A stretch of DNA of 64,000 nucleotides from Alviniconcha marisindica. Lineage: Eukaryota > Mollusca > Gastropoda > Provannidae. The notes below the pieces were generated by a model. The model searched no databases. It saw nothing but the letters and a program-made list of their open reading frames with translations, and was not told the origin of the DNA. Position numbers and translations under genes: made by a program. Shown here piece after piece: positions 4,570 through 61,900 of this stretch; position 1 is the stretch's first letter, and each line of letters starts with the position of its first letter. The stretch is from NCBI GenBank assembly GCA_018857735.1, contig JABMCL010001163.1, positions 342,501-406,500 on the forward strand, written 5' to 3'.

Positions 4570-7500
4570 AGGGTTTGCTTGCATACATGTAGAAATGTGA
4601 ATACAGTGCACATGTTTGTTAATGGTTCCATTGTTAATTGCTATACTGACTGTATAGGCATGGGGATATATAATATACATATAAACTGAAACAGTGAGGA
4701 AGAATAAGTGATGATATCCTATCTAGATCTCTCTCTCTCTGTCTCTCTCTCTGTCTCTCTTTCTCTCTCTGTCTTGTTGCTTTACTTTTGAGCTTGAGTA
4801 TGATTATATGCAGTGGACACAACTAAAACATGATACTTGTTGATCTATCCTACTTTTTGTAGCCAAAATAGCAAAGAGATTGTGTTTGCTGGGGTAACTT
4901 GGTATATTTAATATTAATAATGGTGACAGTTGTACTAACACCTCAACCAATGGCAAACAACATGTTTTTGTCTCTGATGCTGGAACAGTGTCAAGGTCAA
5001 GCCTGGGTCAGTCAACGGCAGCCTGCAGAGTATTGCTGCGCTTCCTGTTGCTTCGAATGCAGTCACGGTCGGAGGGTTGTACCATTTCTCAGGTATGCAG
5101 TATGCATGTGCTTTTATGTGATTAATGTGAGGTGTGTGTGTATGCATGAAGGTCACTGCTGAAAAGCTTGTACATCTCGTTTTCTTCTCCTGTTAGACAC
5201 TTAAGAATGCAGGTATATGACGTCAAAATCTAAGAATGTTAAGCTTGCCAAATTTATTAGTTGTATTTTTGAGTTATTTTGATTAAGCCAATAATGAAAC
5301 ACAACGAAATAAGAAATATTTAATTTTTACGCCTTAGCCGTACATATTTATAACAACTTTGATTTGTGTTTGAGCATTTTTTCTTTCTTATATATATATA
5401 AAGTGTGGTAGTTATTTATTAGTAGAACTCATGTACTTGTTCATAATGAATGTCGTGTGCGAATGTAACTTCGCTTTCTAGCCCCCAGGGGCAAAAAGCT
5501 CAATAAAACCTTGAAAACCTTGAAACCTTGGTAATACAGTGGAATAATCTTCGGTGCCTACCCAAGTATGCAGGTAAAGCTGACCAGTATGATCTAGACA
5601 TCTCAGAATGCATGTGAAACATTGGAGCGTTCCCAACAGGAGGAAAGGGGGTTGTGGTAGGTGGGTCATGCTGGGAGGGGTGAAACTATGTGCAGGTAAT
5701 AGTGGTACGAGATTATTTTCTTTCTTGTATATTGCTGCTTCTCATACAGTACATGTACATTTTTGTGTGTGTGTATATTGTTAGTTGTCATATATATTAT
5801 GCATTACTTTCTTGAACATGTTTCCTTTGGTTGTTTTTTAACTTAATATTTAAAAATGTCGGAGAATGTTGTAAAGCATGGTGAGTTTGTGTATATTCTA
5901 CTTATTCATAGACTAGCGCTATATGAAATTTATCTCTTATTATTATCTGCTGATACTGGTAAAGAATGGAATCTTTTGTTGCATTGGCCTTGATTTAAGG
6001 AGAAAGTGAACCTGTTGGGGTGTTTGCTGTCAATGTCAGTGATCTTGTTTTGGAGAGTGCAATAAACCCTGGCATATTTTGTTGACAATAGTAACTGATG
6101 ATATTGATTCAGGGGCCACAGTTATGTTTGGTGTGATGGTTATGGTCTGCTGCAGAAGTAGCTGATATGCTGATTCAGGGGCCATTGTTAATGTTTGGAG
6201 TGATGCTCTGCTGCAGAAGTACCTGATGATGCTGATTCAGGGGCCGTGTTAATGTTTGGTGTGATGCTCTGCTGCAGAAGTACCTGATGATGCTGATTCA
6301 GGGGCTGTGTTAATGTTTGGTGTGATGCTCTGCTGCAGAAGTACCTGATGATGCTGATTCAGGGGCCGTGTTAATGTTTGGTGTGATGCTCTGCTGCAGA
6401 AGTACCTGATGATGCTGATTCAGGGGCCATGTTAATGTTTGGTGTGATGGTCTGCTGCAGAAGTACCTGATGATCCTGATTCAGGGGCCGTGAGAATGTT
6501 TTGTGTGATGCTCTGCTGCAGAAGTACCTGATGATGCTGATTCAGGGGCTGTGTTAATGTTTGGTGTGATGCTCTGCTGCAGAAGTACCTGATGATGCTG
6601 ATTCAGGGGCCATGTTAATGTTTGGTGTGATGCTCTGCTGCAGAAGTACCTGATGATGCTGATTCAGGGGCCATGTTAATGTTTGGTGTGATGCTGTGCT
6701 GCAGAAGTACCTGATGATGCTGATTCAGGGGCCATGTTAATGTTTGGTGTGATGCTGTGCTGCAGAAGTACCTGATGATGCTGATTCAGGGGCCATGTTA
6801 ATGTTTGGTGTGATGCTGTGCTGCAGAAGTACCTGATGATCCTGATTCGGGGGCTGTGCAAAGGAGGCGGCTGCCTGACCAAATCTGATGTGGTGACCTT
6901 CACCTCCATGATGAAAGCATCCAAACAGCCACCCATCATCCGGGGAGATGCTGACTCCTCAGGTAACCTGATTCCCTTTGTCTTTTTCGGGGACAGCGTC
7001 TTGTGCAGTGCAGAGGGAGCGTTTGCCTGCACTGTACATTGGTCCCTCTGTCTGGGACAATCTCCCTTTCTGTGTGTGACTTGCTCAGGCTTTGTCTTCC
7101 TTCAAGTCACAGCTCAGGACTCGTCTTGTCTCTGTCTTACTCATAACACTTCAAACTGTCTCCAGCCTGCCAGTAAATCTGTGTAGGTGTGTGCATGTAC
7201 GTGTGTGTGGGTGCCTGTACATATGTGTGTGTGTGTGGGTGCCTGTACATGTGTGTGTGTGGGGGGGGGGGGATGCTTGATGATGAATTAATATTGTGTG
7301 TTTTGATGTCAGTTGTTTTTTAGTATGAAATGTGCGCACCTAGGGCTCATTTGAGAAAGGGTGCTTAGTCTAAGACCCCATTATTATTATTTTTAACAGG
7401 ACGGACAGTGAGGGTTAGGATGGACAGCTCGGTGGTTAATGTAAATCTCTGGGAGTGGGGATAGCTCAGTGGCAGAGTGACAGACTTGTGATTGAAGGGT

Positions 7501-10500
7501 CTCAGGTCTGAGTCCTGGCAGGAGCGGCGGGAAAATTTTCTGCTCGAAGTTCAACTTTCTATGCTGACTCTCATTTCAGTATCTGATACACCCCATTGTT
7601 ACTGCATGTGCACGTAAAAGATCCCAGTCATTTTGCCAAAAGTGCAGTTGGCAGGTTACATTTAAACACACATGCATCCTTTGTATGTGGCTTCAGATAA
7701 AGTGACACTGTAAACTGGTGCATGGTTGTATGGTATACACAGAACTTGTGCTGAGACAGCACCAGTTTCATGTGGCACCAGCCATATTACAACTAAACAG
7801 TGCTGTAACCATTTTGGTGGATATTCAAAACACATTGAGTAAAGCTACAGTCACTGATTCAGAGTTGCATACAACCAGAGCTCAGAAGCAGAGAAAAGCA
7901 CTATAGTTGCCATTGTGAAGCGCTCAGGGGTTCAGCTTGAGATGAAAAGTTCAACATGTGTTCATATAAATATATAAGTAAATAAAATAATATCCATGTG
8001 GGCTCATCCTTGGCGTGCAGCCATCACTGGCTCAAGGAGTGTCTTAAATGAGTCCCCAGGTTTGTGGGCGAGTTTTCAGAGTTTGTCAGTTTCACAGGGA
8101 TGCTTTGTGCTGCAGACACGGCTGAGCCGACAGAACCGAAGGAGAAAGAGAAGGAGAAGGAGAAGGAAAAGAAGCTGCTGCGTTTGGACACCGGGAGCAA
8201 CCTCTTTGACCAGCTGACCTCTGTGCTGGACCAGGCGGCCCCTATCAGCATGAACAAACTGGACAGCAACCTTGACCCTGCCCCCATCAATGAGCGCGAC
8301 AGCAGAACCAGCAGCGGAGAGACCCCGGAGGAGATGCTGAGCTCCTTCGCCAGGAAGAACTGCAACTGCCTGCTGCAGCTGAACGGCTCCAACATCCTGC
8401 TGGACTCCTGCAGCCAGCTGGTCTTTCTGTCCAAGTACCAGCAGCGCTACAAGGAAGCCCTGGCCGGCACCGCTTTCGTCCTGCCTGGCACCCTGTCGGA
8501 GGCCTTGACCACCAGAAACACGTAAGTCACCCTGTCATGGCCACCAGAAAAAGATTTAGGGACCCTGTCTTGACCACCCCAAAAATGTCATGACCACAGA
8601 AACCGGTAGTTCTGTGTCCTTCCTAAACCTCTAGGAGTATTTAGCCACCAAAGGGAAACGTGGTGAACTGACCATCATGTGATGGCAGTGTTTGGTTTTG
8701 CCTGTGTTAGTTGCTAATCTGTCTTGATTCACATGGTGGTGATGCTTGCTTCTGTTAGGCACCAGTCCATTGTTTTGCCTGTGTTCGTTGCTAATCTATC
8801 TTGATTCACATAGTGGTGGTGTTTGCCTCTGTTAGGTATCAGTCCATTGTTTTGCCTGTGTTCGTTGCTAATCTATCTTGATTTACATAGTGGTGGTGTT
8901 TGCCTCTGTTAGGCACCAGTCCATTGTTTTGCCTGTGTTCGTTGCTAATCTATCTTGATTCACATAGTGGTGGTGTTTGCCTCTGTTAGGTGGTGTTTCC
9001 TGTGCCAGGTACCAGTCCATTGTTTTGCCTGTGTCAGCTGCTAATCTGTATTGATTTACATGGTGGTGGTGTTTGCCTGTGCCAGGTACCAGTCCATCAT
9101 TTTGTCTGTGTCAGCTGCTAATCTATATTGATTTACATGGTGGTGGTGTTTGCCTGTGCCAGCTACCAGTCCATCGTTTTGTCTGTGTCAGCTGCTAATC
9201 TGTCTTGATTTACATGAGGGTGGTGTTTGCCTGTGTTAGGTATCAGTCCCTTGTTTTGCCTGTGTTATCTTGATCCACATGGTGGTGGTATTTGCCTGTG
9301 CCAGGTACCAGTCCATCCTCAGTGATGTGACGGTGGTGTGGATGATCTTCTCACTGCCGGTGCTGGAGCCGCTGACCCCCAAACGCCTGGAGCAGATCAT
9401 TGCCTGGACCGTCAGCTGCCTGTACACAGCCGTCACTGTGGCCACCGCCGACACCATCATCAACATGGTCAAACCAGCCACCGCCGCCCAACCCGCCAGC
9501 AAGGACGAGGAGATTGAGGGCTACGGCCGTGCCATTGTGCAGAAGTCGGTAAGTGCAATGCAACAGAAGTTGGTGTGTGCCAGTCTGCAACACTTTTAGT
9601 GAGACAGAAGTTGGTGTGTGCGAGTCTGCAACAAGTGAGACAGAAGTTGGTATGTGCAAGTCTGTAGCACTCTGGCAGTTTTAGTGAGACAGAAGTTGGT
9701 ATGTGCAAGTCTGCAACACTCCTACAGTTTTAGTGTGACAGAAGTTTGTATGTGCAAATCTGCAACGTTTTTAGTGAGACAGAAGTTGGTATGTGCAAAT
9801 CTGCAACATTTTTAGTGAGACAGAAGTTGGTATGTGCAAGTCTGCAACACTTTTAGTGAGACAGAAGTTGGTATGTGCAAGTCTGCAACACTTAGTGCGA
9901 CAGAAGTTGGTATGTGCAAGTCTGCAACACTTTTAGTGCGACAGAATTTAGTATGTGCAAGTTGGCACCACTTTCACAGTTTTAGTGAGGCAAAAGTTGG
10001 TATGTGCAACACTTTTAGTGAGACTGTACAGATAACACTTCTGGTAAAGCATTCCGTTTATTTAGAACATAATACTTGATAAGGGAGACTGAAAAGAAAG
10101 TGGAAGATTTGAGACAGTGCTTGGTAAGGTGGGCTGTAAGTATGAGGTCCCAATGTGCTGCAAAACTGAAACAGTGGTCTACATTACATTACAAACAGTG
10201 GTCTACAGTGGGCTGGGAGTGGTTAGTATTATACTGGTTTGAGACTGGGGTTAACATTACAGTGGGCTGTAAATTTGAGACAGTGGTTGACATTACAGTG
10301 GGCTGTAAATTTCATGTTACAGTGGGCTGCAAGTTTGAGACAGTGGTTTACATGACTGGGCTACAAGTTTGAGACAGCGGTTGACATGAGGCTGCAAATT
10401 TGAGACTGGATGACATTCTAGTTGTCTGTAGATCTGCTGATGGTTACCCTTGTGCGCTTAGTGGCTCTGTAGACCATGACTCTAAAAATTGTCATAGAAT

Positions 10501-13500
10501 GTTTTGAAAAAACAGACACGGGTAAATGAGAACATGGCTGTAGACTGAAGAGGGACATTTTTGTTTGTCATTTTCAGCTGGAAGTGTTCAACGCTGTGTC
10601 TGTGGCTGTGCGCAACTCCACACGGGCAGGGGGGAATGTGAGTGCCACTGACTGTCTAATCTGGCTGTCTGCCTGCCTTCTTTCTGTGCTGTGTCGGACT
10701 GTCTTGCCTGTGTTCTGCAGGCTGGCTGTCTTGTCTGTGTGACTTGTCTCTGACTGTCATCTCAGTTTGACTGTCTTGTATGTGTGACGTGCCTGACTGT
10801 CTTGTTTGGACGTCTAGTCTGTCTTCTTTGCCTTGGCGTTTGTCTTGTCTGGATGACTTGTCATACTGTCTTATCTGACTGTCTTCTCATTTTGACTGTC
10901 ATGTATGTGTGACTCGTCTGACTGTCTTGTTTACATGACCAGTCTGTCTTCTTTGTCTTACCTGTCTTGTATGTGTGACTCATCTGACTGGCATGTTTGC
11001 ATGACTAGTCTGGCTTCTTTGTCTTGCCTGACCGTCTTGTCTGTCTCATTTGTCGTACTGTCTTGTCTGACTGTTGTCCCAGTTTGACTGTCTTGTCTGT
11101 ATGACTTGACAGACTGCCCTGTAGGTGGCTCAGACCCTCCACTGGCAGCATGGGTACTGGTCAAAGGGTATCATGCCTGTGATGATAGTGACCTTGTTTT
11201 GTGTGGCTGTAGATGGCTCAGAACCTTCACATACTGGGTGCTGGTCAAAGGGCATCATGCCTGTGATGATAGTGACCTTGTTTTGTGTGGCTGTAGATGG
11301 CTCAGAACCTCCACATGCCGGGTGCTGGTCAAAGGGCATCATGCCTGTGATGATAGTGACCTTGTTTTGTGTGGCTGTAGATGGTTCAGAACCTCCACAT
11401 GCCGGGTGCTGGTCAAAGGGCATCATGCCTGTGATGATAGTGACCTTGTTTTGTGTGGCTGTAGATGGCTCAGAACCTCCACATGCCGGGTGCTGGTCAA
11501 AGGGCACCATGCCTGTGATGATAGTGACCTTGTTTTGTGTGGCTGTAGATGGCTCAGAACCTCCACATGCTGGGTGCTGGTCAAAGGGCATCATGCCTGT
11601 GATGATAGTGACCTTGTTTCGTGTGGTTGTAGATGGCTCAGAACCTCCACATGCCGGGTGCTGGTGAAAGGGCACCATGTCTGTGATGATAGTGACCTTG
11701 TTTTGTGTGGCTGTAGGTGGCTCAGAACCTCCACATGCTGGGTGCTGGTGAAAGGGAATCATGTCTGTGATGATAGTGACCTTGTTTCGTGTGGTTGTAG
11801 ATGGCGCAGAACCTCCACATGCCGGGTGCTGGTCAAAGGGCATCATGTCTGTGATGATAGTGACCTTGTTTCGTGTGGTTGTAGATGGCTCAGAACCTCC
11901 ACATGCTGGGTGCTGGTGAAAGGGCACCATGCCTGTGATGATAGTGACCTTGTTTTGTGTGGTTGTAGATGGCTCAGAACCTCCACATGCCGGGTGCTGG
12001 TCAAAGGGCATCATGTCTGTGATGATAGTGACCTTGTTTTGTGTGTGTAGATGGCTCAGAACCTCCACATGCCGGGTGCTGGTCAAAGGGCATCATGTCC
12101 TGTGATGATAGTGACCTTGTTTTGTGTGGCTGTAGGTGGCTCAGAACCTCCACATGCTGGGTGCTGGTCAAAGGGCATCATGTCTGTGATGATAGTGACC
12201 TTGTTTTGTGTGGCTGTAGGTGGCTCAGAACCTCCACATGCTGGCAGCCTGGGTGCTGGTCAAAGGGCTGCAGGGCATCATGTGCCTACGCCGGCCATCA
12301 TTCTGGAGCGACGGGACTCGGGCAAGCGGCAGGCGGGAGACGGAGCCCTGCACAAAGCCAAAGACATGGTGCCTGCACCCAACAGACTGGCATCAGGCAA
12401 AAGGTGAATTGTAGCTACCTCCTCATTGTTTGTGTGGTCTGTGTCTTTTCTTCTCATTATGTGCCCTTTGTCTTTCTCCTCATTGTTTGTGTGACCTATG
12501 TCTTCATTCTGACTGTGATCTGTCTTTCTCCTCATTGTTTGTGTGACCTGTGTCTTCCTCCTCACTGTTCGTGTGATCTGCCTTTCTCCTCATTGTGTGA
12601 TCTCCACCTTTTTCCTCATTGTTTGTGTGATCTGTGTCTTTCTCTTCATTGTTTGTGTGATCTGTGTCTTCCTCCTCACTGTTTGTGTGTTCTTTGTCTT
12701 GTTTGTGTGACCTGTGAGTTCCTCCTCATTGTTTGATCTGTCTTTCTCCTCATTGTTTGTGTGACCTGCGGCTTTCTCCTCATTCTTTGTGTGATCTGTG
12801 TCTTCCTTTTCATTGTTTGTGTGATCAGTGTCTTCCATCCCATTTTTTCCTTGTAGTGGTTGCCAAAGGCTTTGATGTGGCATGCTGATCACAGCCCAGT
12901 TTCCACTTGCAGTGGTCAGGGTGGCTCAGGGATTGCATGTTGATCACTGCCCTGTTGTCCCTTGCAGTGGTCACCAAGGCTTCCGTGTTGGTCTGTTTCC
13001 CCTTGCAGTGGTCACCAAGGCTTCAGTGTTGTTGTGTCACCAAGGCTTCAGTGTTGGTCTGTTTCCCCTTGCAGTGGTCACCTAGACTACAGTGTTGGTC
13101 TGTTTTCCCTTGCAGTGGTCACCTAGACTACAGTGTTGGTCTGTTTTCCCTTGCAGTGGTCACCAAAGCTTCAGTGTTGGTCTGCTTCTGTGTTGGTCTG
13201 TTTCTTTTTGCAGTGGTCGCCAAGACTTCAGTGTTGATCTGTTTTTCCCTTGCAGTGGTTGCCAAGGCTACAGTCTTGGTCTCTTTCCCCTTGCAGTGGT
13301 CACCAAGGCTTCAGTATTGATCTGTTTCTCTTGCAGTGTTCACCAAGGCTTCCGTGTTGGTCTGTTTCCCCTTGCAGTGGTCACCAAGGCTTCTGTGTTG
13401 GTCTGTTTCTCTTTGCAGTGGTCACCAAGGCTTCATTGTTGGTCTGTTTTCCCTTGCAGTGGTCACCAAGGCTTCAGTGTTGGTCTGTTTTCCCTTTCAG

Positions 13501-16500
13501 TGGTCACCAAGGCTTCAGTGTTGGTCTGTTTTTCCTTGCAGTGGTCATCAAGGCTTCAGCGTGGCGGCAGTGGCTCTGGCATCCAGTGCAATCCAGCTGC
13601 TGACCTCATTGCTGGACGACCTGCAGATTGAGGGCAGCTTTGGAGAACTGGAGGTACCCACATGTTGTATTTGGAACTGTGGCTGTGATGCTGTCTTTTT
13701 TATTACTTATGATGGTTTGCAAGGTGTGCTGTGTGTGTGCATATGTGCGTGCGCTATGTGTGTACTTTGTGTGTGTGTGTGTGTGAGCACATGAGAGAAA
13801 GAGATAGAGAGATTCTGCAACTGATCTTCGTTTCGCAGTGGTGTTGCGTGTCATATGGAAGAGTTTATCAACTATTTTTATGTGACAGTCAATATAGAAT
13901 CAATACTCTACCTTTGCTTCTTTAGGCACCGTCAGGAGAAGTTCCACCAGGCCTTGACATCAAACTGCTGACGCCCCTGTCAGCATGGCAACGTGTTCGT
14001 GGACTGTTAGCCTCGGTGGGGCTTGTGGACCTCCTGTTCAACCTTGTCAGCGTCTCCTTCAGAAAGGTGAGAGCACGTGGTGTTCAGCCTTGTCAGTGTC
14101 TCTTTCAGAAAGGTGAGAGTACGTGGTGTTCAGCCTTGTCAGTGTCTCTTTCAGAAAGGTGAGAGCACGTGGTGTTCAGCCTGTCAGTGTCTCTTTCAGA
14201 AAGGTGAGAGCACGTGGTGTTCAGCCTTGTCAGCGTCTCCTTCAGAAAGGTGAGAGCACGTGGTGTTCAGCCTTGTCAGTGTCTCTTTCAGAAAGGTGAG
14301 AGTACATTGTTGGTGTTGGAGCTGGTCAGCGTCTCCTTCAGAAAGGTGAGAGCACATTGTTGGTGTTGAACCTTGTCAGCGCCTCTTTCAGAAAGGTGAG
14401 AGCACATTGTTGGTGTTGCAGCCTGGTCAGGTCTCCTTCAGAAAGGTGAGAGCACTTGTTGGTGTTGAACCTGTCAGCTCTTTCAGAAAGGTGAGAGTAC
14501 ATTGTTGGTGTTGGAGTTGGTCAGTGTCTCCTTCAGAAAGGTGAGAGCACATTGTTGGTGTTGAACCTTGTCAGCGCCTCTTTCAGAAAAGGTGAGATAA
14601 CATTGTTGGTGTTGAACCTTGGGCAGTGTCTCCTTCAGAAAGGTGAGAGCACTTGTTGGTGTTGAACCTTGTCAGCGCCTCTTTCAGAAAGGTGAGATAA
14701 CATTGTTGGTGTTGGAGTTGGTCAGTGTCTCCTTCAGAAAGGTGAGCACGTTGTTGGTGTTGAACCTTGTCAGCACCTCTTTCAGAAAGGTGAGATAACG
14801 TTGTTGGTGATCAACCTTGTCAGTGTCTCCTTCAGAAAGGTGAGAGCACTTTGTTGGTGTTGAACCTTGTCAGCGCCTCTTTCAGAAAGGTGAGATAACA
14901 TTGTTGGTGTTGGAGTTGGTCAGTGTCTCCTTCAGAAAGGTGAGAGCACGTTGTTGGTGTTGAACCTTGTCAGCACCTCTTTCAGAAAGGTGAGATAACG
15001 TTGTTGGTGATCAACCTTGTCAGTGTCTCCTTCTGAAAGGTGAGGGCACATTGTTGAACCTTGTCAGTGTCTCTTCAGAAAGGTGAGATTATGTTCTCCG
15101 TAAAAAGTGATGTTGGCCACTAACTTCCTGTGACACAGAAGCAAGTCAGTGAGCTGTTGGTCCAGGTAGCCTACCCTGGTGAAGTTAGCCACTAACTTCC
15201 TGTGACGCAGAAGCAAGTCAGTGAGCTGTTGGTCCAGGTAGCCTACCCTGGTGAAGTTAGCCACTAACTTCCTGTGATGCAGAAGCAAGTCAGTGAGCAG
15301 TTGGTCCAGGTAGCCTACCCTGGTGAAGTTAGCCACTAACTTCCTGTGATGCAGCAGCAAGTCAGTGAGCAGTTGGCCCAGGTAACCTACCGCAAAAAAA
15401 AGAGCTGCATTTGATGATGTGGCTGTTTGCAGGCGGTGGTGCTGAAGCGGGCCAAGCAAGGGTCAGAGACGGCAGAGACCAGCAGCAGCAGCACGTCCGA
15501 CTCCAACACCTTCTACGAGGATGACTTCAGCACCACAGAGGACAGCAGTGAAGAGGGTAGGTCTGCTTTGTACAAGCCTAGTGGAAAGATGTGTCAGTGT
15601 GATGGAGGGGAAAGAGATGTGTAGTGTGATGGAGGAGAAAGCAGACCTGTTTACCCCTACGGTTTCGTCGTAATTCCTACGGATTCAGACCTCAAATTCT
15701 GCTGTTACGCTGGTTGGGTAAAAAATTACAGTCATTGTCCGATTTTCCCTTTCCCACATTTTAAGCTGGAGTAAAACCGCAGGCACAGGATCGAAACTGT
15801 CAAAGGGCCAAAACCAAGTCATGACAGGAAATTACTTCCCTTGGAATACTGACTGCGCATGCTCATTGTTAAAACTCTGCTTCTGCCGCCATCTTTGAAG
15901 TGTGCTTTGGGAAGATGAGTAAAAGATGTGTTGAAGATTCGGGATTGACTACTCCCAAGAAAATTAAGGCGACCCAACATTATCGCCCAGAGTATCGTGA
16001 GAGGTGGTCATGTTTATTGCATTCGCGAAAAGGCAATTCGTTCACTTGACATCAACTTCACTTGTGCACATGGTGGTGGAAACGATTGCAAGAGGCACGT
16101 GAAGTCCATTCACCACAAAGATTATGAATCTTTTAAAGAAATCCCAGCCGTCTTGTTTAAAGTTTCTGGAAGCAAAGCGAGGTGAAGGCCAGCAGGACAT
16201 CATTAGAGCTGAAGCCATGATGTGCGACTTGTTAGTCGTCAAGACTTGTAATCATCACGATCCATGGATCTATTGGGTGTTTCTAATAATAGTTTAAACA
16301 AAATGCTGTTGCACTTGAACTTGAGGCTATTGTGCCTTCATTTGTTACAATCTTGGTTTGAGTAAAAATTAACTGTGAATACATCTGTCTAAAACATTGT
16401 GTGAGATATGAATATATAAGAGTGAAAAATGGAGTGTGTGTATTACTGACAGTCACCTTGGATTACTGACAACTTCTGCCCAAAGTACTGACAAGTGAAA

Positions 16501-20037: not shown

Positions 20038-20127
<90 letters not shown>

Positions 20128-28987: not shown

Positions 28988-29026
<39 letters not shown>

Positions 29027-38248: not shown

Positions 38249-38291
<43 letters not shown>

Positions 38292-41957: not shown

Positions 41958-42032
<75 letters not shown>

Positions 42033-45000: not shown

Positions 45001-47165
45001 CACACATCCCACTGTGATATAGCTTGACTGACAGGTAATGTCATGCCCTGATGTTGAAGGTACCACTGTGATATAGCTTGACTGACAGGTAATGTCACAC
45101 CCTGATGTTGAAGGTACCACTGTGATATAGCTTGACTGACAGGTAATGTCACGCCCTGATGTTGAAGGTACCACTGTGATATAGCTTGACTGACAGGTAA
45201 TGTCACGCCCTGATGTTGAAGGTACCACTGTGATATAGCTTGACAGACAGGCAGTGTCACACCCTGATGTTGAAAGTACCACTGTGATATAGCTTGACTG
45301 ACAGGTAATGTCACGCCTTGATGTTGAAGGTCCCACTGTGATATAGCTTGACTGACAGGTAATGTCACGCCCTGATGTTGAAGGTACCACTGTGATATAG
45401 CTTGACTGACAGGTAATGTCACACGCTGATGTTGAAGGTACCACTGTGATATAGCTTGACTGACAGGTAATGTCATGCCCTGATGTTGAAGGTACCACTG
45501 TGATATAGCTTGACTGACAGGTAATGTCACACCCTGATGTTGAAGGTACCACTGTGATATAGCTTGACTGACAGGTAATATTATGCCCTGATGTTGAAGG
45601 TACCATGGTGATATAGCTTGTCTGACAGGTAATGTCATGCCCTGATGTTGTACCACTGTAATATAGCTTGACTGACAGGTAATGTCACACCCTGATGTTG
45701 AAGGTACCACTGTAATATAGCTTGACTGACAGGTAATGTCATGCCCTGATGTTGAAGGTACCACTGTGATATAGCTTGACTGACAGGTAATGTCACGCCC
45801 TGATGTTGAAGGTACCACTGTGATATAGCTTGACTGACAGGTAATGTCATGCCCTGATGTTGAAGGTTCCACTGTGATATAGCTTGACTGACAGGTAATG
45901 TCATGCTCTGATGTTGAGGGTACCATGGTGATAGAGCTTGACTGATGTTGACATGTGATATGGCTTGACTCACAGCTAATGTCAGGCCCTGATGTTGAAG
46001 GTACCACTGTAAAATAGCTTGACTGATGTTGACATGTAATATGGCTTTACTACTGACAAGTGATGTCAAGCCCTGATGTTGACAGGTACCACTGTGATAT
46101 AGCTTGACTGACAGGTCGTGTGAATCCCATATACTTGACATATCCCACTGTCATAGAGCTTGACTGATAGGTGATGTAAAACCCATATATGGACATGTCC
46201 CATTGTAATATAGCTTGACTGACAGGCAGTGTCCAAAACTGATGTTGACAGGTACTGCTGTGATATAGTTTGACTGACAGGTGATGTAAAACCCATATAT
46301 GGACGTGTCCCATTGTGATATAGCTTGACTGACAGGTGATGCAAAACCCATGTATGATATGACCCACCATGATGCAGCTTACTGACAGGTGATGTCAATC
46401 CTTGATGTTGACTGGTACCACTGTGATACAGCTTAGCTGGCAGGTGATGCTCAATCCTTGATGTTGACCGGTACCACTGTAATACAGCTTAACTGACAGG
46501 TGATGTCAATCCTTGATGTTGACGGTACCACTGTGATACAGCTTAACTGGCAGGTGATGTCATCCTTGATGTTGACTGGTACCACTGTGATACAGCTTAG
46601 CTGAGCAGGAAATGATGCTCAATCCTTGATGTTGAAACCCCGGTACCACTTGTAATACAGCTTAACTGGACAGGTGATGTTAATCCTTGATGTTGACCGG
46701 TACCACTGTGATACAGCTTAACTGGCAGGTGATGTCAATCCTTGATGTTGACTGGTACCACTGTGATACAGCTTAACTGACAGATGATGTCAATCCTTGA
46801 TGTTGACCGGTACCATTGTGATACAGCTTAACTGGCAGGTGATGTTGATCCTTGATGTTGACAGGTACCACTGTCACACGTGCAAGATGGTGGATGGTGT
46901 TGGAGTCTGCACGGTGTGTGCCAAGGTGTGCCACAAAGACCACGACCTCTCCTATGCCAAGTTTGGATCCTTCTTCTGTGATTGTGGTGCCAAGGAGGAT
47001 GGCTCTTGCAAAGTGAGGCTTTTGTGTTGGATGTGTGGTTGTGTGTGTGCATGCTTGTGTGGGTGTTTGTAAGTTAAGTGTGTATATGTGCAAATGTGTG
47101 TGTGGTGTGTGTGTGTATGCAGATGTGTGTGTGTGTATGTGTGAGTGTGTGTGTGTGTGATGCAG

Positions 47166-47213
<48 letters not shown>

Positions 47214-47218
47214 TGCAG

Positions 47219-47280
<62 letters not shown>

Positions 47281-50200
47281 TGCAGATGTGTGTGGTGAAT
47301 GCGTGTGTGAATGTGTGTGTGCATGTGGTGCATGTTTGGGTGTTGCTTTGACAAGCCCACACTCTCACGGTCACAGGCCTTGGTGAAGCGCACGGCCCAG
47401 AGCGGCATCGACACCTCAGGTGCTGCCATCGGCCAGTCGCCGTTCGCTGTTGACACCTTCCATCACCACTCTTCCCTGCGTCGCCGCCTCTCCTCCCCAG
47501 GCCCTGACGACAAGCCTGCCGAGGTGACCAAGACCCCGCAAGAAGCCAGCAAAGCTCAAGAGACACTTCTCAAACAAATTGAGGTGGGTGGAGCAGACAT
47601 TCTGGTGGGTGGTGTGGGCATTCTGGTGGGTGGAGCAGGCATTCTGGTGGGTGGTGTGGGCATTCTGGTGGGTGGAGCAGGCATTCTGGTGGGTGGAGCA
47701 GGCATTCTGGTGGGTGGTGTGGGCATTCTGGTGGGTGGAGCAGGCATTTTGGTGGGTGGAGCAGGCATTCTGGTGGGTGGAGCAGGCATTCTGGTGGGTG
47801 GAGCAGGCATTCTGGTGGGTGGAGCAGGCTTTCTGGTGGGTGGTGCGGGCATTCTGGTGGGTGGAGCAGGCATTCTGGTGGGTGGTGCGGGCATTCAGGT
47901 GGGTGGAGCAGGCATTTTGGTGGGTGGAGCGAGCATTCTGGTGGGTGGAGCAGACACTGATGGTTGGAGTTGGTGTTTTGGTTGGTAAACCTGAGCATTC
48001 TTGTTGTGGGTGGATTTGGCATTCTGATGGGTGTTCTGTTGGTGACTGTGGTGGCATTCTGGTGGTGGTTGGAGGTAGTGTTCTGATGGTGTGTGGGCAT
48101 TCTGGCGGTGGTCGGAGTTGGTGTTCTGATGGTGTGTGGGCGTTCTGGTGGTGGGTGTTTTGGGCATTCTGGTGGGTGGTGTGGGCATTCTGGTGATGGG
48201 TGGAGTTGGTGTTCTGATGGTGTGTGGGCGTTCTGGTGATGGGTGGTGTAGGTGTTCCACTGGGCAGAGTTGGCAATCTGGTGGGTGGAGCTGCTGGGGA
48301 CAAGGGGAAACTAAATATGGAGTCAGATGGGTGGAGTTCAAAGTAGTGAAGATTCAAGAGGGTGGAGTTTGGAGGTAGGATGGTTGGATCCAAGTTGTGA
48401 GAGTCTCTGGAGGTAGTTGAGCATAGAGGCAAAATGGGTGGAACCTGGAGATGAAGTGAGTAGATCTAAGTGGTGAAACCGGTAACATTTGGAAGCAATC
48501 AAACATAGAAGTAAAGTGGGTGGAACCTGAGTATTGAAGCCACACCCTTTTGCTTTGAGTGGTGAGACAGGTACAGTGTGGAAGTAGTCGAGCATGGTAA
48601 ATGGGTGGAACCTGGAGATGAAGTGAGTAGATCTAAATGGTGAGACAGGTAAAGTGTGGAAGCAGTCGAGCATGGAGGTAAAAATGGGTGGAACCTGAAG
48701 TGAAGTGAGCAGAGCTAAGTGATGAGACAGATGAAGTTTGGAAGCAATCTGTGTGTGTATAAAATAACATGATTTTTTTCTCTCTATCTTTTCCAGGGCT
48801 TCAAAGGAGAATTGCTCTCTCACATGGTAAGCTGTTTGTTTTTCACGTTGGCCACCCCCTTTTTCTTTTTGAAATAAAAGGTTGACAAAATAATTTTCAT
48901 TATTTATAAAGATCATCTGGAATATACACTGTACCTGACTGATGTTGTTCTTTGACTGGCAGTGCTGTGTATGATACACTTGTAACTTGTAAAGTGCTGC
49001 TTTCAATAATGGTACACTGTCTTAACCCTTTCACCCCCCAGCACTTATGTTTAAAATTACAGCACTTAACATGAAATAGAATCAAACAGAAGCATAAGCT
49101 TAAAAATATACAGAAGTGTAACGATATAATTGCCACATACTTGTTCTTCAGTGGCACCTTGTGCTTGGTGTCCTCACCCCCTACTATCACCTTAACCATT
49201 ACCATATAGGAAGGATAGGAGGTCACCCCTGCTGTCAGACAACTGTAGCTTGACTGACTGACTTTGGTTGGTGTGTTGACAGCAAGTCACCCCTGTCATC
49301 AGACAACTGAAGCATGACTGACTTTGGTTGGTGTGTTGACAGCAAGTCTCGCCCTGATATAACCGCACCGGTTGATTGGGCGTAAAACACCAACTTACTT
49401 ACTTGACAGCAAGTCACCCCTGCTGTCAGACAACAGAAGCATAACTGACTGACTTTGGTTGGTGTGTTGACAGCAAGTCACCCCTGTCATCAGACAACTG
49501 AAGCATGACTGACTTTGGTTGGTGTGTTGACAGCAAGTCACCACTGCTATCAGACAACTGAAACCTGACTGACTGACTTTGGTTGATGTGTTAACAGCAA
49601 GTCACCCCTGCCGTCAATGTCGGACAGCTGAAGCGGGACCGACTGACTTTGGTGGTGTGTTGACAGCAAGTCACACCTGCTGTCAGACGACTGAAGCGTG
49701 ACTGACTGACTTTGGTTGGTGTGTTGGCAGCAAGTCACCCCTGCTGTCAGACAACTGAAGCGTAACTGACTGACTTTGGTTGGTGTGTTGGCAGCAAGTC
49801 ACCCCTCTGTCAGATAACTGAAGCGTGACTGCCTGACTTTGGTTGGTGTGTTGGCAGCAAGTCACCCCTGCTGTCAGGCAACTGAAGCGTGACTGACTGA
49901 CTTTGGTTGGTGTGTTGGCAGCAAGTCACCCCTGCTGTCAGGCAGCTGAAGCATGGTTCGGTGACGGTGGTTGGTGTGTTGACAGGAGCAGTCCAACCTG
50001 GTGCAGACGGTGCTTGACATCCTGCAGTGGATCGTTCCCCCACTGACAGACAACTACCAGGACGCCTCCCCCATGGGGAGCACTGCCCGTGCCCAGAAGG
50101 CCCTGGCTGACCTTCACCTGCAGGCCAAGAAGATCGAAGTCACTGCCGACCAGCTCATGGTATGAATGAAGGGTAACAGGAAGTTTCGCTGAGGGTCAGG

Positions 50201-53200
50201 TTTGCCGAAGCTGGCGAAACTTCCAATTTTATGTGTTAGTGAATCTTCCGGAAAGTTTCACTGATGCCAGCAAAACTTCTAGTTTAATTTGTTGGTGAAT
50301 CTTAAAGAAAGTTTCACTGATGCCAGCAAAACTTCTAGTTTAGTTTGTTGGTGAATCTTCCATAAAATTTCACTGATGCCAGTAGAACATCTTGTTTAAT
50401 TTGTTGGTGAATCTTCCAGAAAGTTTCACTGATGCCAGCAAAATTTCCAATTTAATGTGTTGGTGAATCTTCCAGAAAGTTTCACGGATGCCAGCAAAAC
50501 CTATTTACAGTTTCAGTGAATTTTGCCTGGTGAAACTAAAATTTGCAATCATGTTTGTTTGTTGCTTGAATGGTTGGTTGGTAAAATCGCTGCTTGTCTG
50601 GGTGAATTTGCATTTCTAAGGTTCAAGTGATGCTTTTACCTCTGTATGCAGATGGAAAAGCTGAATGTTAGTGGAGACATTTGGTCAGGGTGAAGTTTGA
50701 TGCGTGATAGTGACACTGATTTAGTCAGGATAAATACCTTTTTAGCGTCATCTGGTATTTTGCTGACCCAGGGAAGTATTTAAAAGTTTTGTGATGTTTT
50801 CAAACTATTGGCAAAACATCCTAATGCTTCATGGGTCAGCAAAACTGGATGTTTCACTGATAACTTGAAAACATTGGCGAAACTTTGAATTTCTGTTGGC
50901 AAACATGAAGGCCAGTGAAACTTCCACTTCCATAATTGAGCTGAAGGGTTTGGGAGGGGTGGGGGGGGGAGGGGGGGGTTACATGTGTGGAGAGGTGTGA
51001 CGTCCGTAATTGAGCTGGGGGGGGGTTATAAGATGGAAAGCATGCAATGCAGTAAAAGAGGGGGCTTGACATGGTTGAAGGTGCCAAATGTGTGGATCAG
51101 GATGGCGTTACAACTGGAATGGTTTGGATGCACGAGCTTCAGCATTTCAAAAGTGTGAAACGCATACCTACAGTTATGTGAGTGTACAGCAATACCTCAC
51201 CCGACTATTGTTACATCATTGTTTTTCTTCTCAGAAACTGTGCATAGTAATGCATGTGCCCATGAACGTCTCCTCTTGAATATTCTGTCTGTGGCAGATA
51301 AAATTTTTTTACAAAGTGCACATATGCGCATGCACCTAAATACTTTGACTCTGTCAACCGAATAGATTTTTTTGTCCAAGACGGTGACGCTAGGCTCGCA
51401 AGAGGGTGCTTTCGAGAACGTGCGCATGAACTACAGCGGGGACCAGGGCCAGACGATCCGGCAGCTGGTGACGGCCCACATGCTGCGCCGCGTGGCCATG
51501 TGCGTGCTGTCCTCCCCGCAGGGCAAGCGGCAGCACCTGGCCGTCAGCCACGAGAAGGGCAAGATCACCATCCTGCAGCTCTCCGCCCTCCTCAAGCAGG
51601 CCGACTCCAGCAAGAAGAAGCTCACGCTCACGGTCAGCCTGGTTTTGACTTTACTGTGATGTTGATTTGCTCACGGTCAGCCTTTACTTTGATGTTGATT
51701 TGCTCACGGTCAGCCTTTACTTTGATGTTGATTCGCTCACGGTCAGCCAGTTTTTACTTTACTATGATGCTGGTTTGCTGACGGTCGGCCTGGTTTTTAC
51801 TTTACCCTGACGTTGGTTTGCTCATGGTTGGCCTGGCTTTTACTGTTTGTGTTAATGTTGGAGCATAGCAACCAGGGTAGGATTTGCGGTACATCTCATC
51901 AGTGTTTGACTGAGCTGATTGTTGTTTGATTTCTAGTGCCTGTCATCAGTATTCCAATTGGTGGTTGTTTGATTTCCAGTACCTGTCATCAGTATTTGAG
52001 CTGATGTTTGATTTCCAGCGCCTGTCATCAATATTTGATTGAATTGATTGTTTGATTTCCAGCACCTGTCTTCAGTGTTTGAATGATTGTTGTTTGATTT
52101 CCAGTGCCCGTCATCGGTATTTGAATTGATTGTTGTTTGATCTCCAGCACCTGTCATCAGCCCTTAATTGTTGTTTGATTTCCAGTGCCTGTCATCAGTA
52201 TTTGAATTGATTGTTGTTTGATTTCCAGCGCCTGTCTTCAGTATTTGAATTGATTGTTTGATTTCCAGCGCCTGTCATCAGTATTTGAATTGATTGTTGT
52301 TTGATTTCCAGCGCCTGTCATCAGCCCCCATCCCCTTCACTGTGCTGTCCATCACGGGCAATCCCTGCAACGAGGACTTCCTGGCTGTCTCTGGACTCAA
52401 GGTCAGTGTGGACTAGAAGCTTGCCAGGACCGCTTGACCCCATGCTGCAGATCAAACCTCACTCGTGCATGCAAATCATTTTCTGACTTAATCATTGGGG
52501 TGGATTATAAAGCAAACGTTTTAATATTAGGTTTTTATTTTGAGCTCATCTACTTGTGAAGAAGAGGAAAAAACTTTGAAGATGCTAGTTCCTTTAAGGC
52601 GTTAGGGAGAAAGTGATCAAGTTCCTTTAAGGCAATAGGGAGAAAGTGATCAAGTTTCTTTAAAGGCAGTAGGGAGAAAATGATCAAGTTCCTTTAAGAG
52701 AGCAAGGAGATGATGATGATGATGATGATAAGTGATGCTTAATGTCCTCAGATGTCAGTTGACATATTAGGGACAAGTTGTGACCAATGCCGAAGCACGG
52801 TTCAATAATTGTTTACATCCACAAAAACCAGAAGGCTCGTTTGGATGGACAGCTCAGGACGGCAACCTTGACTCTCACACAGCTCCTGAACTATGACAGA
52901 GCAAGGAGAAAGTGATTGTGTTCTTTTAAGGCAGCTGGGAGAAAATGATCAAGTTCTTTTAAGGCAGCTGGGAGAAAATGATCAAGTTCTTTTAAGGCAG
53001 CTGGGAGAAAATGATCAAGTTCTTTTAAGGCAGCTGGGAGAAAATGATCAAGTTTCTTTAAGGCAATCAGGAGAAATCGATCAAAGTTCTGTGCCATTAT
53101 GACCTGGAAGAGAGAATTTCTGCCATTCTTCCCCACCTCCTTTTTGCCTCCTCTGTCCTGCCTTCTTATCTGTCTCGTCTTGTGTGTTGTATTTTTCATT

Positions 53201-55757: not shown

Positions 55758-55831
<74 letters not shown>

Positions 55832-55876
55832 CACATACAGCCATCCATACACATGCACCACACACACACACACAAC

Positions 55877-55954
<78 letters not shown>

Positions 55955-58900
55955 CACACACACACACACACAGCCGCATATATCGGTTGTCTAACTGATA
56001 CAAGTTAGATCCGACATGTATTAGTTGTCCAGCATGTGTGTCAGTCAGCTGGCTGATGCAAGTTAGATCCGACATGTATCCACTGTCCAGCTGATGCAAG
56101 TTAGATCTGACATGTAATAGTTGTCCGGCATGTATCAGTTGTCATGTATCAGTTATCACTCAAAAGTTTACCCTACTTGCTGACAGCGGTTAGGCTTTGT
56201 GTTAGCAGTTCTTTTCCTGCATTGAATCAGACATTGCCCTTTGTTGTTGCAGGGAAGAGTTTTTCAGCACCTGTGGCCAAGGACCTGTCCAAAGTGACCA
56301 ACCTGTTCCCCATCACCTTCAAGTGGTCAGTCAATATCACCACAAAAATCACTTCTTTTCATCTTCACAGTCCCCACAAAAAGTCACCTGTTTTCATCTT
56401 TAGTGTCACCACAAAAAAGCTTGTTTTTGTCTTCAGTGTTACCACATAAACACACCTGTTTTCATTTTCAGTGTCACCACAAAAACGCTCCTGTTTTCAT
56501 CTTCAGTGTCACCACAAAAACACACTTGTTTTTGTCTTCAGGGTCACCATGTAACACACCTGTTTTCTTTTTCAGTGTCGCCACCAAAACACACCTGTTT
56601 TCATCTTCAGTGTTACCACCAGAACACACCTGTTTTCATCTGCAGTGTCACCACCAGAACACACCTGTTTTCATCTGCAGAGTCACCACAAAAGCACACT
56701 TGTTTTTGTCTGCAGTGTCACCACATAAACACACCTGTTTTCATTGTCACTGTCACCACAAAAACACACCTGTTTTAATTCTCATTGTCATCACAAAAAT
56801 ACTTCGTGTTTTTACATCTGCATTTTTACATTTTTTTCAGGGAAAAAACTCCCCCCCCCAAAAAACTCGCCTGTTTTCACTTTCGGGTTTTTTTCACCGG
56901 CAAAAAAACTCACCTGTTTTCACTTTCAGAGTCACCACAAAAACTCACTTGTTTTCACTTTCAGAGTCACCACAAAAACTCACCTGTTTTCACTTTCAGT
57001 GTCACCACAAAAACTCGCCTGTTTTCACTTTCAGTGTCACCACAAAAACTCACCTGTTTTCACTTTCAGAGTCGCCACAAAAACTCATCTGTTTTCATTT
57101 TCAGTGTCACCGCAAAAACGCACATGTTTTCTTCGCTTTCAGCGTCACTGCAAAAACACACGTTTTTACGCCTTCTCGCTGACAGCGGTTAGGCGCCACT
57201 GACAACAAAGCGTCACCTTTTTTCATCCTCAGAGTCATCAGAAAAACTCCCTTGTTCTCATCTTGTTCATAAGCACCACCAAACATTTTGACCTCTCCTT
57301 TCATTGTTAGTTTTCTTTTAAATTAAGAAAGAAAAAAAAATGATGTGTATTCTGTTATGTGGGCACAAAGGGGGGCAAAGGGGTGAGTGCAGCTTTAACA
57401 GATAGATGATGAAACATTGTCTCCTTAGTTCCAATGGTGGGGGTAAAGGGGTGAGTACAGCTTTAACAGGTAAATGATGACAGGTTGTTGTCTTGGCAGT
57501 TCCAGCAGTGGGGGCAAAGGGGTGAGTGCAGCTTTAACAGGTGAATGATGACAGGCTGTTGTCTGCTGCAGTTCCAACGGAGGGGGCAAAGGGGTGAGTG
57601 CAGTTTTAACAGGTGAATGATGACAGGCTGTTGTCTGCTGCAGTTTCAACGGTGGGGGCAAAGGGGTGAATGCAGCTTTAACAGGTGAATGATGACAGGC
57701 TGTTGTTGCCAAGTTCGAACAGTGGGGGCAAAGGGGTGAGTGCAGTTTTAACAGGTGAATGATGACAGGCTGTTGTTGCCACAGTTCGAACAGTGGGGGC
57801 AAAGGGGTGAGTGCAGTTTTAACAGGTGAATGATGACAGGCTGTTGTCTGCTGCAGTTCCAACGGTGGGGGCAAAGGGGGCGGCGGGAGCCAGCCTCTGG
57901 TGCAGTGGTCGGAGGTGCCGGGCCACACTGGGCTTCTCTACTGCATGGCGCAGACCTCCAACAACCCCATCGTCCTCATGGTGCGCCCAGATGCCATCGT
58001 CATGCAGGAGATCAAGGTCATCCCTGCCAAGGCCAAGGTCAGTTGGATTATTTTTTTTTAAATTTTGGCTTGGTTTGCAACTGTTTAAAATACACAGAGC
58101 TTCCTGAACAAGTTGCAACATGCTATGTGATTTTGTTATGCTGCGTCATTGAAATCGAGGTCATCCGTGCCATGACCAAGGTCAGTTTGAATTTTGTTTC
58201 TTGGGCTTGGTTTGTGAGAGTTTCAAATACACAGAGCTTCCTGCACAAGTTGCATAGTCCTTTGGCAACATGCTCTGCGATTTTGTCGTGCCACGGTTTT
58301 GAATTTCATGTCAGTGTGCTGTGAGCTAACACTTGTTATGGTTTCACTTTTTGTTCAGATTCAAGATGTGGTGGCGATCAGACACTTGGCCTCCACTTCA
58401 GACCAGGTTAGTGTCAGTGTTAAGTAGCTGGTGTCCTTCGTGTCAGTGTTAGGTAGCTGGTGTCCTTGGTGTCAGTGCTATGTAGCTGGTGTCCTTGATG
58501 TCAGTGTTATGCAGCTGGTGTCCTTGATGTCAGTGTTATGTAACTTGTGTCTTTCATGTCAGTGTTGTGTAGCTGGTGTCCTTGTCAGTGCTATGTAACT
58601 TGTGTCTTTGGTGTCAGTGATCTGAAGTATGTCAGTGTTATGTAGTTTGTGTTCTTGGCATTAGTGTTGTATAGCTTGTGTCAGTGTCATGTAGCTTGTT
58701 CCATTCTTGGTATTGTTATGTAGTTTGGGTACTTCTTGGAGTAAGTGTTCTGTAGCTTGTGCCCTTGGTGTCTGTGGCACTTAGCTTGTGTCCTTCTCCT
58801 TGTTTCCTTCCTGGTGTCATTTTTATGCAGAGTGTGTATTTCTTGGTGTCATGGTTGTTTAGTTCGTGTTCTTGGTGTCAGTATTACATTGCTTGTGTCC

Positions 58901-61900
58901 TTGGTGTCATTGTCATATAGCTTGTGTCCTTGATGCCATTGTTATGCAGTGTGTGTCTTTGGTGTCAGTGTTACATAGCTTGTTCCCTTCTTTAGTGTCA
59001 GTTATGTGTAGCTTAATTGTGTCCTTGGTATCAGTGTTACATAGCTTCTGTCCTTGGTGTCATTGTCATATAGCTTGTGTCCTTGATGTCATCGTTATGC
59101 AGTGTGTGTCCTTGATGTCATTGTCATATAGCTTGTGTCCTTGATGTCATCGTTATGTAGTGTGCCCCTGATGTCAGTATTACTTAGCTTGTGTCAGTGG
59201 TACATAGCTTGTTCTCTTCTTAGTGTCAGTGTTGTGTAGCTTAATTGTGTCCTTGGTCTCAGTGTTGTATTGGGCTGCAGACAGACTGCTTTGCTAACGT
59301 GTGACGGTCTCAGTGTTATGCTGGGCAGCAACGCACCACCATGATCCTGCTGTGTGAGGACGGCAGTCTGCGTATCTACATGGCCAACGTGGACAACACC
59401 AACTACTGGATGTCGCCCTACCTGCAGCCGCAGAGTCCCATCGCCGCCCTCAAGCCTGTCAAAAAGAAGAAGCAAATCAAGTCAGGTGAGACTGACTGAC
59501 AGGGAAGGGGTTAAGGGGTGGGAAAGGGTTAAAGCAGCGAATGTTGCATGACTGTTGCCTCACCTTCAGTAGCTGTTACTTCACCTCGGTCAAGTCAAGT
59601 GAGCGTGACACAGGGAAGGAGTTAAGGGGTGGGAAAGGGTTAAAGCAGCAAACACTGCATGACTGTCACCTTACCTTCAATAGCTGTCCCTTCACCTTGG
59701 TCAAGTCAGGTGAGCGTGACGGACAGGGAAGGGGTTAAGGGCTGGGAAAGAGTTAAGGCAGCAAACTTTGTGTGACTAATGCCTCGCCTTTAGCTGCTGT
59801 CCCTTTGCCACCCCTAAACTGTGATTACTGGAAAAGCTTGTGTTGATGGGAAGTGTTTTGTCTTGTGTTGATGGGAAATGTTTGGCTGTGAAGTGTTTTG
59901 TGTTGATGGGAAATGTTTAGCTGTGAAGTATTTGGTCTTGTGTTGATGGGAAGTGTTTAGCTGTGAAGTGTTTTGTGTTGATGGGAAGTGTTTTTGTGCC
60001 TGCAGGTCGTCCAGTGGGAAGCGTCAGTTTTCCCATCGACTTCTTCGAGCACTGTCAGCAGAGCAACGACGTCGAGGTGGGTACCCTCAGCTCCACCTTA
60101 GCCATTCTGGCTCTCTAGCAAGCACTGTGGCCATGTTGCAGTTTAGCAGCATCATGTTGCTGTACCCCAACCCTCAAAAGGGATGGGAGGGGGTCCTGCC
60201 TTAAAATTCTTTTTGTGTTGTGTGGCTGTACATATTTAAGCATGTACTTTGATGAAGCTGGCTAGGTATTGGATGCTGAGTTGACTGAGTGCCTGCTATC
60301 ATTATAAAAACTGCTCCTGGTGGTCCACCTGTATTGATAAGCAGGGTTGTTAATGTTAGCATCTTTTGGTGAGGAAGTGAAAGAGGCCATTTGCACGTGT
60401 GTTGATGTGTGATGTTTCAGTTTGGTGCTAACGACATGCAGCAAGCGTGCAGTACACCTGTGTATTGATGTGTTTGGTGGTAGCAACATGCTGCAAATGT
60501 ACAGTATACATGTGTGTTGATGTGTGGTGTTTCAGTTCAGTGGTAGTGACATGCTGCGAGTGTACAGTATACATATATGTTGATGTGTGATGTTTCAGTT
60601 TGGCATTAAGAACATGCTGCAGGTGTACAGTACACGTGTGTTGATGTGTGATATTTCAGTTTGGAGGTAACAACATGCTGCAGGTGTACAGTATACATCT
60701 GTGTTGATGTGTGATGTTTCAGTTTGGCGGTAACGACGTACTGCAAGTGTACAATGTCCAGCAGGTGAAGCATCGCCTCAACACAACTGGCATGTACGTT
60801 GCCAGCTCCAAGGTATGGCCCCCTGCCCCCTCTTTTCTCTACTGGTTCTCTCTGTCCCCTACAGATTCTCCCTATCCCCCCTCCCCACCCCACCCCCCAT
60901 GCCCTCAGTCCCCTACAGATTCTCCCTGTCCTCCCTCCCCACCCCACCCCACCCCCCATGCCCTCTGTCCCCTACAGATTCTCCCTGTGCCCTCTCTCCC
61001 CTACAGATTCTTTCTGTTCTCTCTGTGCCCTCTGTGTCCTACAGATTCTCCCTGTGCCCTCTGTCCCCTACAGATTCTCCCTGTGCCCTCTGTCCCCTAC
61101 ATATTCTCCCTGTGCCCTCTGTCCCCTACAGATTCTCCCTGTGCCCTCTGTCCCCTACATATTCTCTCTGTGCCCTCTGTCCCCTACATATTCTCCCTGT
61201 GCCCTCTGTCCCCTACAGATTTTCCCTGTCTACAGTTTTGGGAGTGTTTTTATTCAAAACCTTTTTTCTTCATGAAATAGTGTTTAAATGTGGGTTCATC
61301 ATTGCTTGTGTCTGTGTCTGTGCGTGTACAGTCTGCCGGTTTCACCCTGGAGATCCAGAACACAAACGCAGCCAACGTGATGGTGGGGTTGAGGGTGCTG
61401 GTGGGGTCTCAGACCACAGACAAAGCCCCCTCCTACCTGGAGATTTTCGGTCGCACCACCCAGGTGAGCACAGTCCTTTGTCTGCCTATGGTGCTGTGGT
61501 TGAGGGTGCTGGGTGGAGTCTTGTACTACGAACAAAGCTCCGTCCTATCTGCAGGTCTTTGACTGCATCATCCAGGTAAGCCTAGTCCTTTGTCTGTGCT
61601 GGTGGGGTCTCTTACCACAGACACGGCCCCCTCCAACCTGGAGGTCTTTGGTCATATCCCCCAGGTAAGCACAGTCCTTTGTCTGTGCTGGTGGGGTCTC
61701 TTACCACACAGACACAGCCCCCTCCAACCTGGAGGTCTGGTCATATCCCCCAGGTAAGCACAGTCCTTTGTCTGTGCTGGTGGGGTCTCTTACCACAGAC
61801 ACAGCCCCCTCCAACCTGGAAGTCTTTGGTCATATCCCCCAGGTAAGCACAGTCCTTTGTCTGTCTGTCTCTCGGTCAGTCTGCCTGCATAACCCCAGCG

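Follow-up and report, generated by a model that had tools for sequence, protein, structure and literature searches.

Tandem repeats containing copies of splice junctions in many introns of the UBR4 gene of Alviniconcha marisindica

Do the minisatellites of a repeat-rich gene begin wherever a short duplication happens to fall, or are the boundaries between its exons and introns copied by preference? The question is raised by a stretch of 64,000 nucleotides from the gastropod Alviniconcha marisindica (contig JABMCL010001163.1, positions 342,501 to 406,500 of the forward strand), the whole of which is referred to below as the window. Its + strand carries the 5′ portion of a UBR4 gene, which continues past the window end; the arrays listed below are given on the same strand. 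Tandem units that contain exon edges together with their AG or GT are real, and the existence of the copies lies far beyond chance. The preliminary description of this DNA had placed such units in about 20 UBR4 introns; they are found here at 24 of 102 junctions in 21 of 51 introns (13 acceptors and 11 donors). These minisatellites probably arose from ordinary short tandem duplication with little or no regard to junctions, in a duplication-prone gene. An enrichment at junctions between none and about two-fold is possible, and a mechanism aimed at junctions is not established from this gene alone.

The gene model (677–62700) is built on pieces of human UBR4 alignment and consists of 52 exons and 51 introns with a median intron of 1,059 bp, a value taken before the correction of exon 7. 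The identity of the gene given in the preliminary description was confirmed by phmmer comparison of predicted pieces with human UBR4 chains (best E values 7.6e-119, 5.7e-126, 5.3e-279, 8.5e-31 and 2.5e-38); its count of 55 complete introns was not, and its intron numbers differ from those of the present model and were matched by position only. The aligned pieces fall between human UBR4 residues ~28 and 2404, and 930 of 1830 residues in the aligned stretches are identical. An initial set of 47 exons came from a home-made gene finder and was refined under the guidance of PDB-derived alignments to human UBR4. At five places it had mistaken repeated copies of splice sites (decoys) for exons or exon ends (13460, 33737, 40156, 47940 and 61555–61575), and these were corrected by hand to give the 52-exon model. 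The reading frame is open through exons 1–7, exon 8 and exons 9–52, each block separately, with phase breaks at exons 7/8 and 8/9 (12220–13936) that reflect either assembly indels or model error. The start of exon 7 is put at 12220, partly from the human sequence of that stretch and from the content of the unit there, the alternative being 12274. Several of the copied exon edges match human UBR4, among them GHQGF, FGGND and YHCHTC; at these the exon is the older sequence and the intron copies are derived from it.

Arrays were defined as merged calls of Tandem Repeats Finder (TRF) with a period of at least 10 and a score of at least 80. There are 74, distributed over 41 of the 51 introns, with a median unit length of 37.5 bp, and only one shares more than 40 bp with an exon. 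Those scoring at least 100 occupy 27,321 bp of approximately 6000–62000. Arrays account for about half of the intron sequence of the gene. Just 4% of intron 1 (4,137 bp) is repeat; positions 1–6000 of the window, which include this intron, are nearly free of minisatellites and have a G+C content of 0.36–0.40, below most of the remainder. On the sense strand the arrays of introns 2–51 are skewed towards G and T by 0.18 and 0.21 (55 and 52 of the 74 arrays, respectively), the values elsewhere being 0.11 and 0.12 for other intron sequence, 0.02 and 0.05 for intron 1 and −0.04 and −0.05 for exons. Copies in nine arrays are 0.70–1.00 identical to their consensus, and in these nine, compared for signs that inner copies are homogenized, the mean identity is 0.920 at the centre, 0.926 on the junction side and 0.895 at the outer end. 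Comparison of the unit consensuses of different introns gave 0 matches at E 1e-3 for units of at least 20 bp, which points to local duplication; on the same ground a mobile element or introner family is not supported as the source of the arrays.

When whole introns were compared with each other by BLAST, 17 rows were returned, and among the matches listed introns 32 and 34 have repeat units in common. Relatives of the unit that adjoins exon 35 (43699–44137, intron 34) lie at 41678–41857 and 42166–42298 in intron 32, and this kinship may reflect either local spread of the unit or a common source. A dispersed element of ~50 bp, 92–96% identical between its copies and present in both orientations, was also seen in introns 22, 28 and 38 (30972–31024, 36260–36309 and 49352–49404). 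It resembles a fragment of a short interspersed element (SINE) and is reminiscent of mollusc SINEs.

Two tests were used to detect copies of a junction within its own intron. The exon-edge test, with a query of 28 exonic and 4 intronic bp and a score of at least 24, matches at 20 of the 102 junctions, compared with 1 in the reversed intron, 0 in the reverse complement and 0.0 expected from sampled other introns; 19 of the 20 matches span the junction. The junction-spanning test, with a query of 12 + 12 bp, was read at a score of at least 22 since lower cut-offs raise the number of control matches. At this score 22 of 102 junctions match their own intron; the reversed introns gave 1 of 102, and a different intron, drawn at random for each junction, gave 0 of 102. 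At a score of at least 18 the corresponding figures are 24, 6 and 2, and at 16 or more they are 29, 11 and 3, so weak junction-spanning matches mean little. Joined, the tests assign copies to the acceptors of introns 2, 4, 6, 7, 13, 18, 31, 34, 36, 40, 45, 49 and 51 and to the donors of introns 5, 9, 24, 25, 29, 31, 38, 40, 46, 48 and 51. In 18 of the 21 introns the copies represent one end only, introns 31, 40 and 51 having both, and neither test detected a junction copy in 30 of the 51 introns. The units of the junction arrays are 21–146 bp long, and the copies reach into the exon by as little as 6 bp to upwards of 60 bp, with no fixed breakpoint.

Some of these assignments are less secure. 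The match at the donor of intron 24 is TG-rich and doubtful, the acceptor of intron 34 is ambiguous owing to the related units in intron 32, and the donor of intron 38 involves about 6 exonic bp only; support for the donors of introns 4 and 15 is weak. The arrays had been described as lying directly against the exon, which is true of most. It does not apply to the acceptor of intron 51, where the copies are at 62295–62429, nor to the acceptor of intron 31 and the donor of intron 46, whose copies lie outside any TRF array.

On the acceptor side, the first array (6090–6854, 61-bp unit) belongs to intron 2 and extends 28 bp into the exon that starts at 6827. It is followed by an array of 77-bp units at 8695–9266, containing the acceptor edge of the exon that begins at 9305, and by one of 84-bp units at 11119–12241 at the acceptor of intron 6. 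The 41-bp units at 12952–13559 adjoin the exon starting at 13542, and five upstream copies coding for GHQGF form part of the homology chain. Units of 53 bp (20137–20323) are found at the exon starting at 20305, and units of 146 bp (25540–26473) carry the acceptor edge of the exon starting at 26491. At 41318–41371 the beginning of the exon at 41404 is copied once, in diverged form and without the intron edge upstream of it. The array at 43699–44137 (36-bp unit, exon starting at 44127) is the one of ambiguous origin. The exon starting at 46865, which encodes the UBR box, is preceded by 34 copies of a 54-bp unit (45009–46874), the copies nearest the exon having no AG. The remaining acceptor arrays have units of 43 bp (51916–52324, exon starting at 52312), 72 bp (57371–57879, exon starting at 57857), 63 bp (60420–60753, exon starting at 60723, with the exon edge in the copies) and 56 bp (62236–62429). 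The exon whose acceptor edge this last array contains starts at 62616, 187 bp away, with another array between.

On the donor side, a short array of 33-bp units at the donor of intron 4 (8504–8585, exon end 8521) was recognized by TRF only and has no intact decoy. Units of 41 bp at 9563–10024 carry the donor edge of the exon ending at 9548, and in the array of 50-bp units at 14035–15088 the decoys match the real donor of the exon ending at 14066 in strength. A further weak case is the 31-bp array at 22343–22643, with 7 bp of the exon ending at 22349 and a span score of 20. Arrays of 38-bp (33678–34263) and 48-bp units (36904–37879) belong to the donors of the exons ending at 33698 and 36930. 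The array at 40123–40735, with units of 24 to 56 bp, has its nearest decoy 24 bp beyond the exon end at 40132 and in frame. A 21-bp array (47583–47953) starts straight after the donor of the exon ending at 47583 and is open in frame to 47940. Read-through would add a seven-residue repeat, and the gene finder had called this array as an exon. Units of 33 and 43 bp at 51649–51844 contain the donor edge of the exon ending at 51632, and that of the exon ending at 58037 is present as a single copy at 58144–58190. The last two arrays have units of 111 bp (59477–59805, exon ending at 59485) and of 112 and 89 bp (61387–61864), the latter with approximately 70 bp copied from the exon ending at 61463.

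The existence of copies does not by itself decide where the arrays began. In the null model each array was one unit dropped randomly in its intron, with the other arrays shrunk to one unit. At least 7 bp of exon is entered by 17 of the 74 arrays (16 at score thresholds of 100 and 150), the other 57 not straddling a junction, and random seeding predicts 10.2–13.8 at score 80. The probability of 17 or more is 0.01–0.17 at this score, depending on the exon depth allowed, and 0.0075–0.23 over all thresholds. Counted instead by unit content, a hand tally gives 20 arrays on a strict reading (leaving aside the donors of introns 4, 15 and 38) to 23; the corresponding null, in which the unit length of five arrays was set by hand, predicts 8.9–20.9 over nine settings, with P for 20 or more ranging from 0 in 2,000 trials to 0.67. 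The main source of this spread is the intron length assumed at the birth of an array. The earlier claim that the placement is unexpected under random origin is therefore not upheld, as 8.9–20.9 straddling arrays are predicted and 17–23 seen. The boundary-duplicating mechanism proposed with it is not established, and a preference is possible under some nulls (P for at least 20 falling to 0.0005 or below).

The limits of the arrays give a similar picture. Boundaries occur at 5.48 per kb at the exon edge (7–35 bp deep) and at 4.90 and 3.97 per kb in the first two 30-bp bins of the intron, that is, 27 in 6,079 bp (the first 60 intronic bp) vs 16 in 2,920 bp (exon edge), P 0.52, which is no clear difference. 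An overall rate of 4.73 per kb was set aside because it cannot be compared with these bins. Moving four boundaries by unit content changes this to 23 vs 20, P 0.05; a version with a fifth boundary moved (P 0.03) was not used, as a different array holds the outermost position in that intron. An apparently strong junction enrichment derived from array boundaries alone was weakened once unit length and pre-expansion intron length entered the null.

The arrays do contain the hundreds of decoys that had been claimed. At 24 junctions, a set that includes the weak donors of introns 4 and 15 and leaves out the donor of intron 24 and the acceptor of intron 51, 282 extra copies cover the splice dinucleotide and 258 of these have an intact AG or GT; such counts vary with the aligner (27 matches vs 21.8 TRF copies in intron 9). 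Scored with splice-site matrices, 135 of the 258 intact decoys equal or exceed the genuine site, so something besides local strength, for example position, must decide between them. Use of the nearest intact decoy would lengthen the exon by 21–613 bp; the reading frame would be kept in 8 of 23 cases. In the copies, identity reaches 0.957 at the splice dinucleotide, compared with 0.919 at other intronic positions and 0.906 in the exonic part. In general, therefore, decoys have not been eliminated. Intron 36 departs from this: its AG is worse kept than the surroundings (0.863 vs 0.99) and its nearest intact decoy is 613 bp upstream. Within 46250–46864 it is the copies closest to the UBR-box exon that have lost their AG, as though nearby decoys had been disfavoured by selection.

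These observations can be accommodated by the ordinary duplication favoured above. The arrays would originate by replication slippage or unequal exchange, slippage itself being a process that we infer, and approximately one birth in 4–8 would be expected to begin across an exon edge because the units are long relative to the non-repeat intron. Extra copies on the intron side would be harmless so long as splicing takes the exon-proximal site, and the arrays could then grow like any minisatellite, carrying AG or GT along. Exon definition, with short exons and longer introns, would be expected to favour the exon-proximal site: since any decoy would make a short exon longer, a spliceosome pairing sites that lie close together would pass the decoys over. 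The one-sided placement of the copies needs no mechanism because only intron-side copies leave the protein unchanged. For the same reason the earlier statement that arrays end at the genuine acceptor or start at the genuine donor is correct by definition and hence uninformative, the genuine site being the one that leaves the protein intact. The roughly equal involvement of acceptors and donors also counts in favour of this reading.

Several points weigh against it. With 32 bp of exon allowed at score 80, 17 or more straddling arrays have a P of 0.01. If the non-array intron is kept at full length and the exonic part at no more than 70% of the unit, 11.8 arrays are expected by content and P for at least 20 is 0.0015, so that a junction preference may exist; the content count itself is inflated, being more sensitive at exon edges than elsewhere. 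The units of straddling arrays are longer (median 50 vs 35), as predicted by random seeding, but other models predict this too. When the AG or GT is ranked against neighbouring pairs in 19 arrays, its mean rank is 0.66 (P 0.019) if judged by agreement with the genuine site and 0.64 (P 0.039) if judged by the majority base; this slightly better preservation is not predicted by pure neutrality. Finally, the use of the exon-proximal site for splicing is suggested indirectly, by protein conservation.

Junction-specific copying of exon–intron boundaries, for instance by template switching or by repair at R-loops or splice-site sequences, at about twice the random rate, would account for the 20–23 arrays counted by content, since five of the nine null settings expect 8.9–13.8, and the G- and T-rich sense strand of the arrays would favour R-loops. 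The other four settings expect 14.9–20.9, however, the TRF boundaries just inside the intron are about equally dense, and acceptors and donors are involved with many unit lengths and no common breakpoint; this explanation is considered rather unlikely. If instead selection maintained redundant splice sites as spares or as a platform for splicing enhancers, the rank of the AG or GT would be understandable, as would the identity of more than 0.94 at donor positions −1, 0, +1, +4 and +5. Other donor-side positions (−9, −5, −4, +8, +12 and +13) are equally high, though, and copies within an array are not independent. The 30 introns without a detected junction copy, the poorly kept AG of intron 36, where near decoys appear harmful, and unit lengths without a clear bias towards multiples of three (8 of 17 straddling arrays vs 18 of 57 others, P 0.26) make such selection improbable. 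Of the tolerance and selection named together in the preliminary description, tolerance of redundant sites is supported and selection for them receives weak support from the ranks.

Arrays produced by collapsed or mis-joined reads could explain why the phases fail to join at exons 7/8 and 8/9, and one of the junction-spanning arrays of amphioxus known as mirages was aberrantly assembled in a draft (PMC3087553). Such an artefact is very improbable given the divergence of the copies from their consensus (0.70–1.00 identity in nine arrays), the differences between the consensuses of different introns, the window without N and the coding frame that is open through exons 9–52. Least probable of all is that the copies are traces of intron gain, in which an internal duplication with a proto-splice site made the intron (the Rogers model). 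Tandem genomic duplication is a documented route to new introns (PMC3443670) and mirages have been proposed as its source (PMC3087553), but in 18 of 21 introns the copies stand at one end only, which speaks against it.

The informative part of the locus is the survival of arrays with strong decoys and not their one-sided placement. The gene provides about 20 natural experiments in which equal splice sites stand at defined distances from an exon and so allow a direct test of the rule that the exon-proximal site wins. The arrays also illustrate how an intron can expand from its own edges, and they serve as a warning that gene predictors can be misled by decoys. It is conceivable, if doubtful, that throughout whole genes of this lineage, outside the lancelets, boundaries are copied about twice as often as random placement would give, and that splicing routinely chooses among hundreds of equally strong sites by position alone; were this true, the gene would let exon definition and intron growth be tested in a natural setting.

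By its title, a 1995 study by Turri reportedly deals with a minisatellite that provides repeated splice donors to an interferon-induced transcript, the gene of which is said to be human 6-16/IFI6. That case, again by title, concerns one array in one gene with donors provided to the transcript; in UBR4 there are many arrays. A likeness also exists to tandem genomic duplication containing AGGT as a route of intron gain, where a short duplication doubles a splice signal; in that process new introns are made from exon sequence, whereas the UBR4 introns already existed and have apparently grown (PMC3443670).

Junction-spanning arrays have already been described in kind as the mirages of amphioxus. 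These are minisatellite-like tandem repeats across an exon–intron boundary at either intron end, found in Adh3 and in the globins BflGb6 and BflGb9 and, by title, at other loci such as retinol dehydrogenase and presenilin (PMC3087553). Their units measure 10–72 bp in Adh3 and 150–160 bp in the globins, those of BflGb6 being 81–100% alike; many copies keep AG or GT, and reverse transcription PCR suggested regular splicing (PMC3087553). Homogenization of the inner copies to the exclusion of the array ends, length polymorphism and somatic instability also belong to the description of mirages, and the hosts in the cases considered are all cephalochordates (PMC3087553). Several tandem repeat elements are also mentioned for scaffolds of amphioxus huntingtin (PMC2206037). 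A search of the open literature found no report of about 20 such arrays in one gene, although it cannot exclude one. The UBR4 arrays resemble mirages in having units that span the exon–intron boundary (24 of 102 junctions, one doubtful and two not tandem), in occurring at both intron ends, in keeping AG or GT in 258 of 282 copies, and in a unit length of 21–146 bp, within approximately 10–160 bp. They differ in affecting about 20 introns of one gene at once, and it is this density of junction arrays in a single gene that is notable and stands out.

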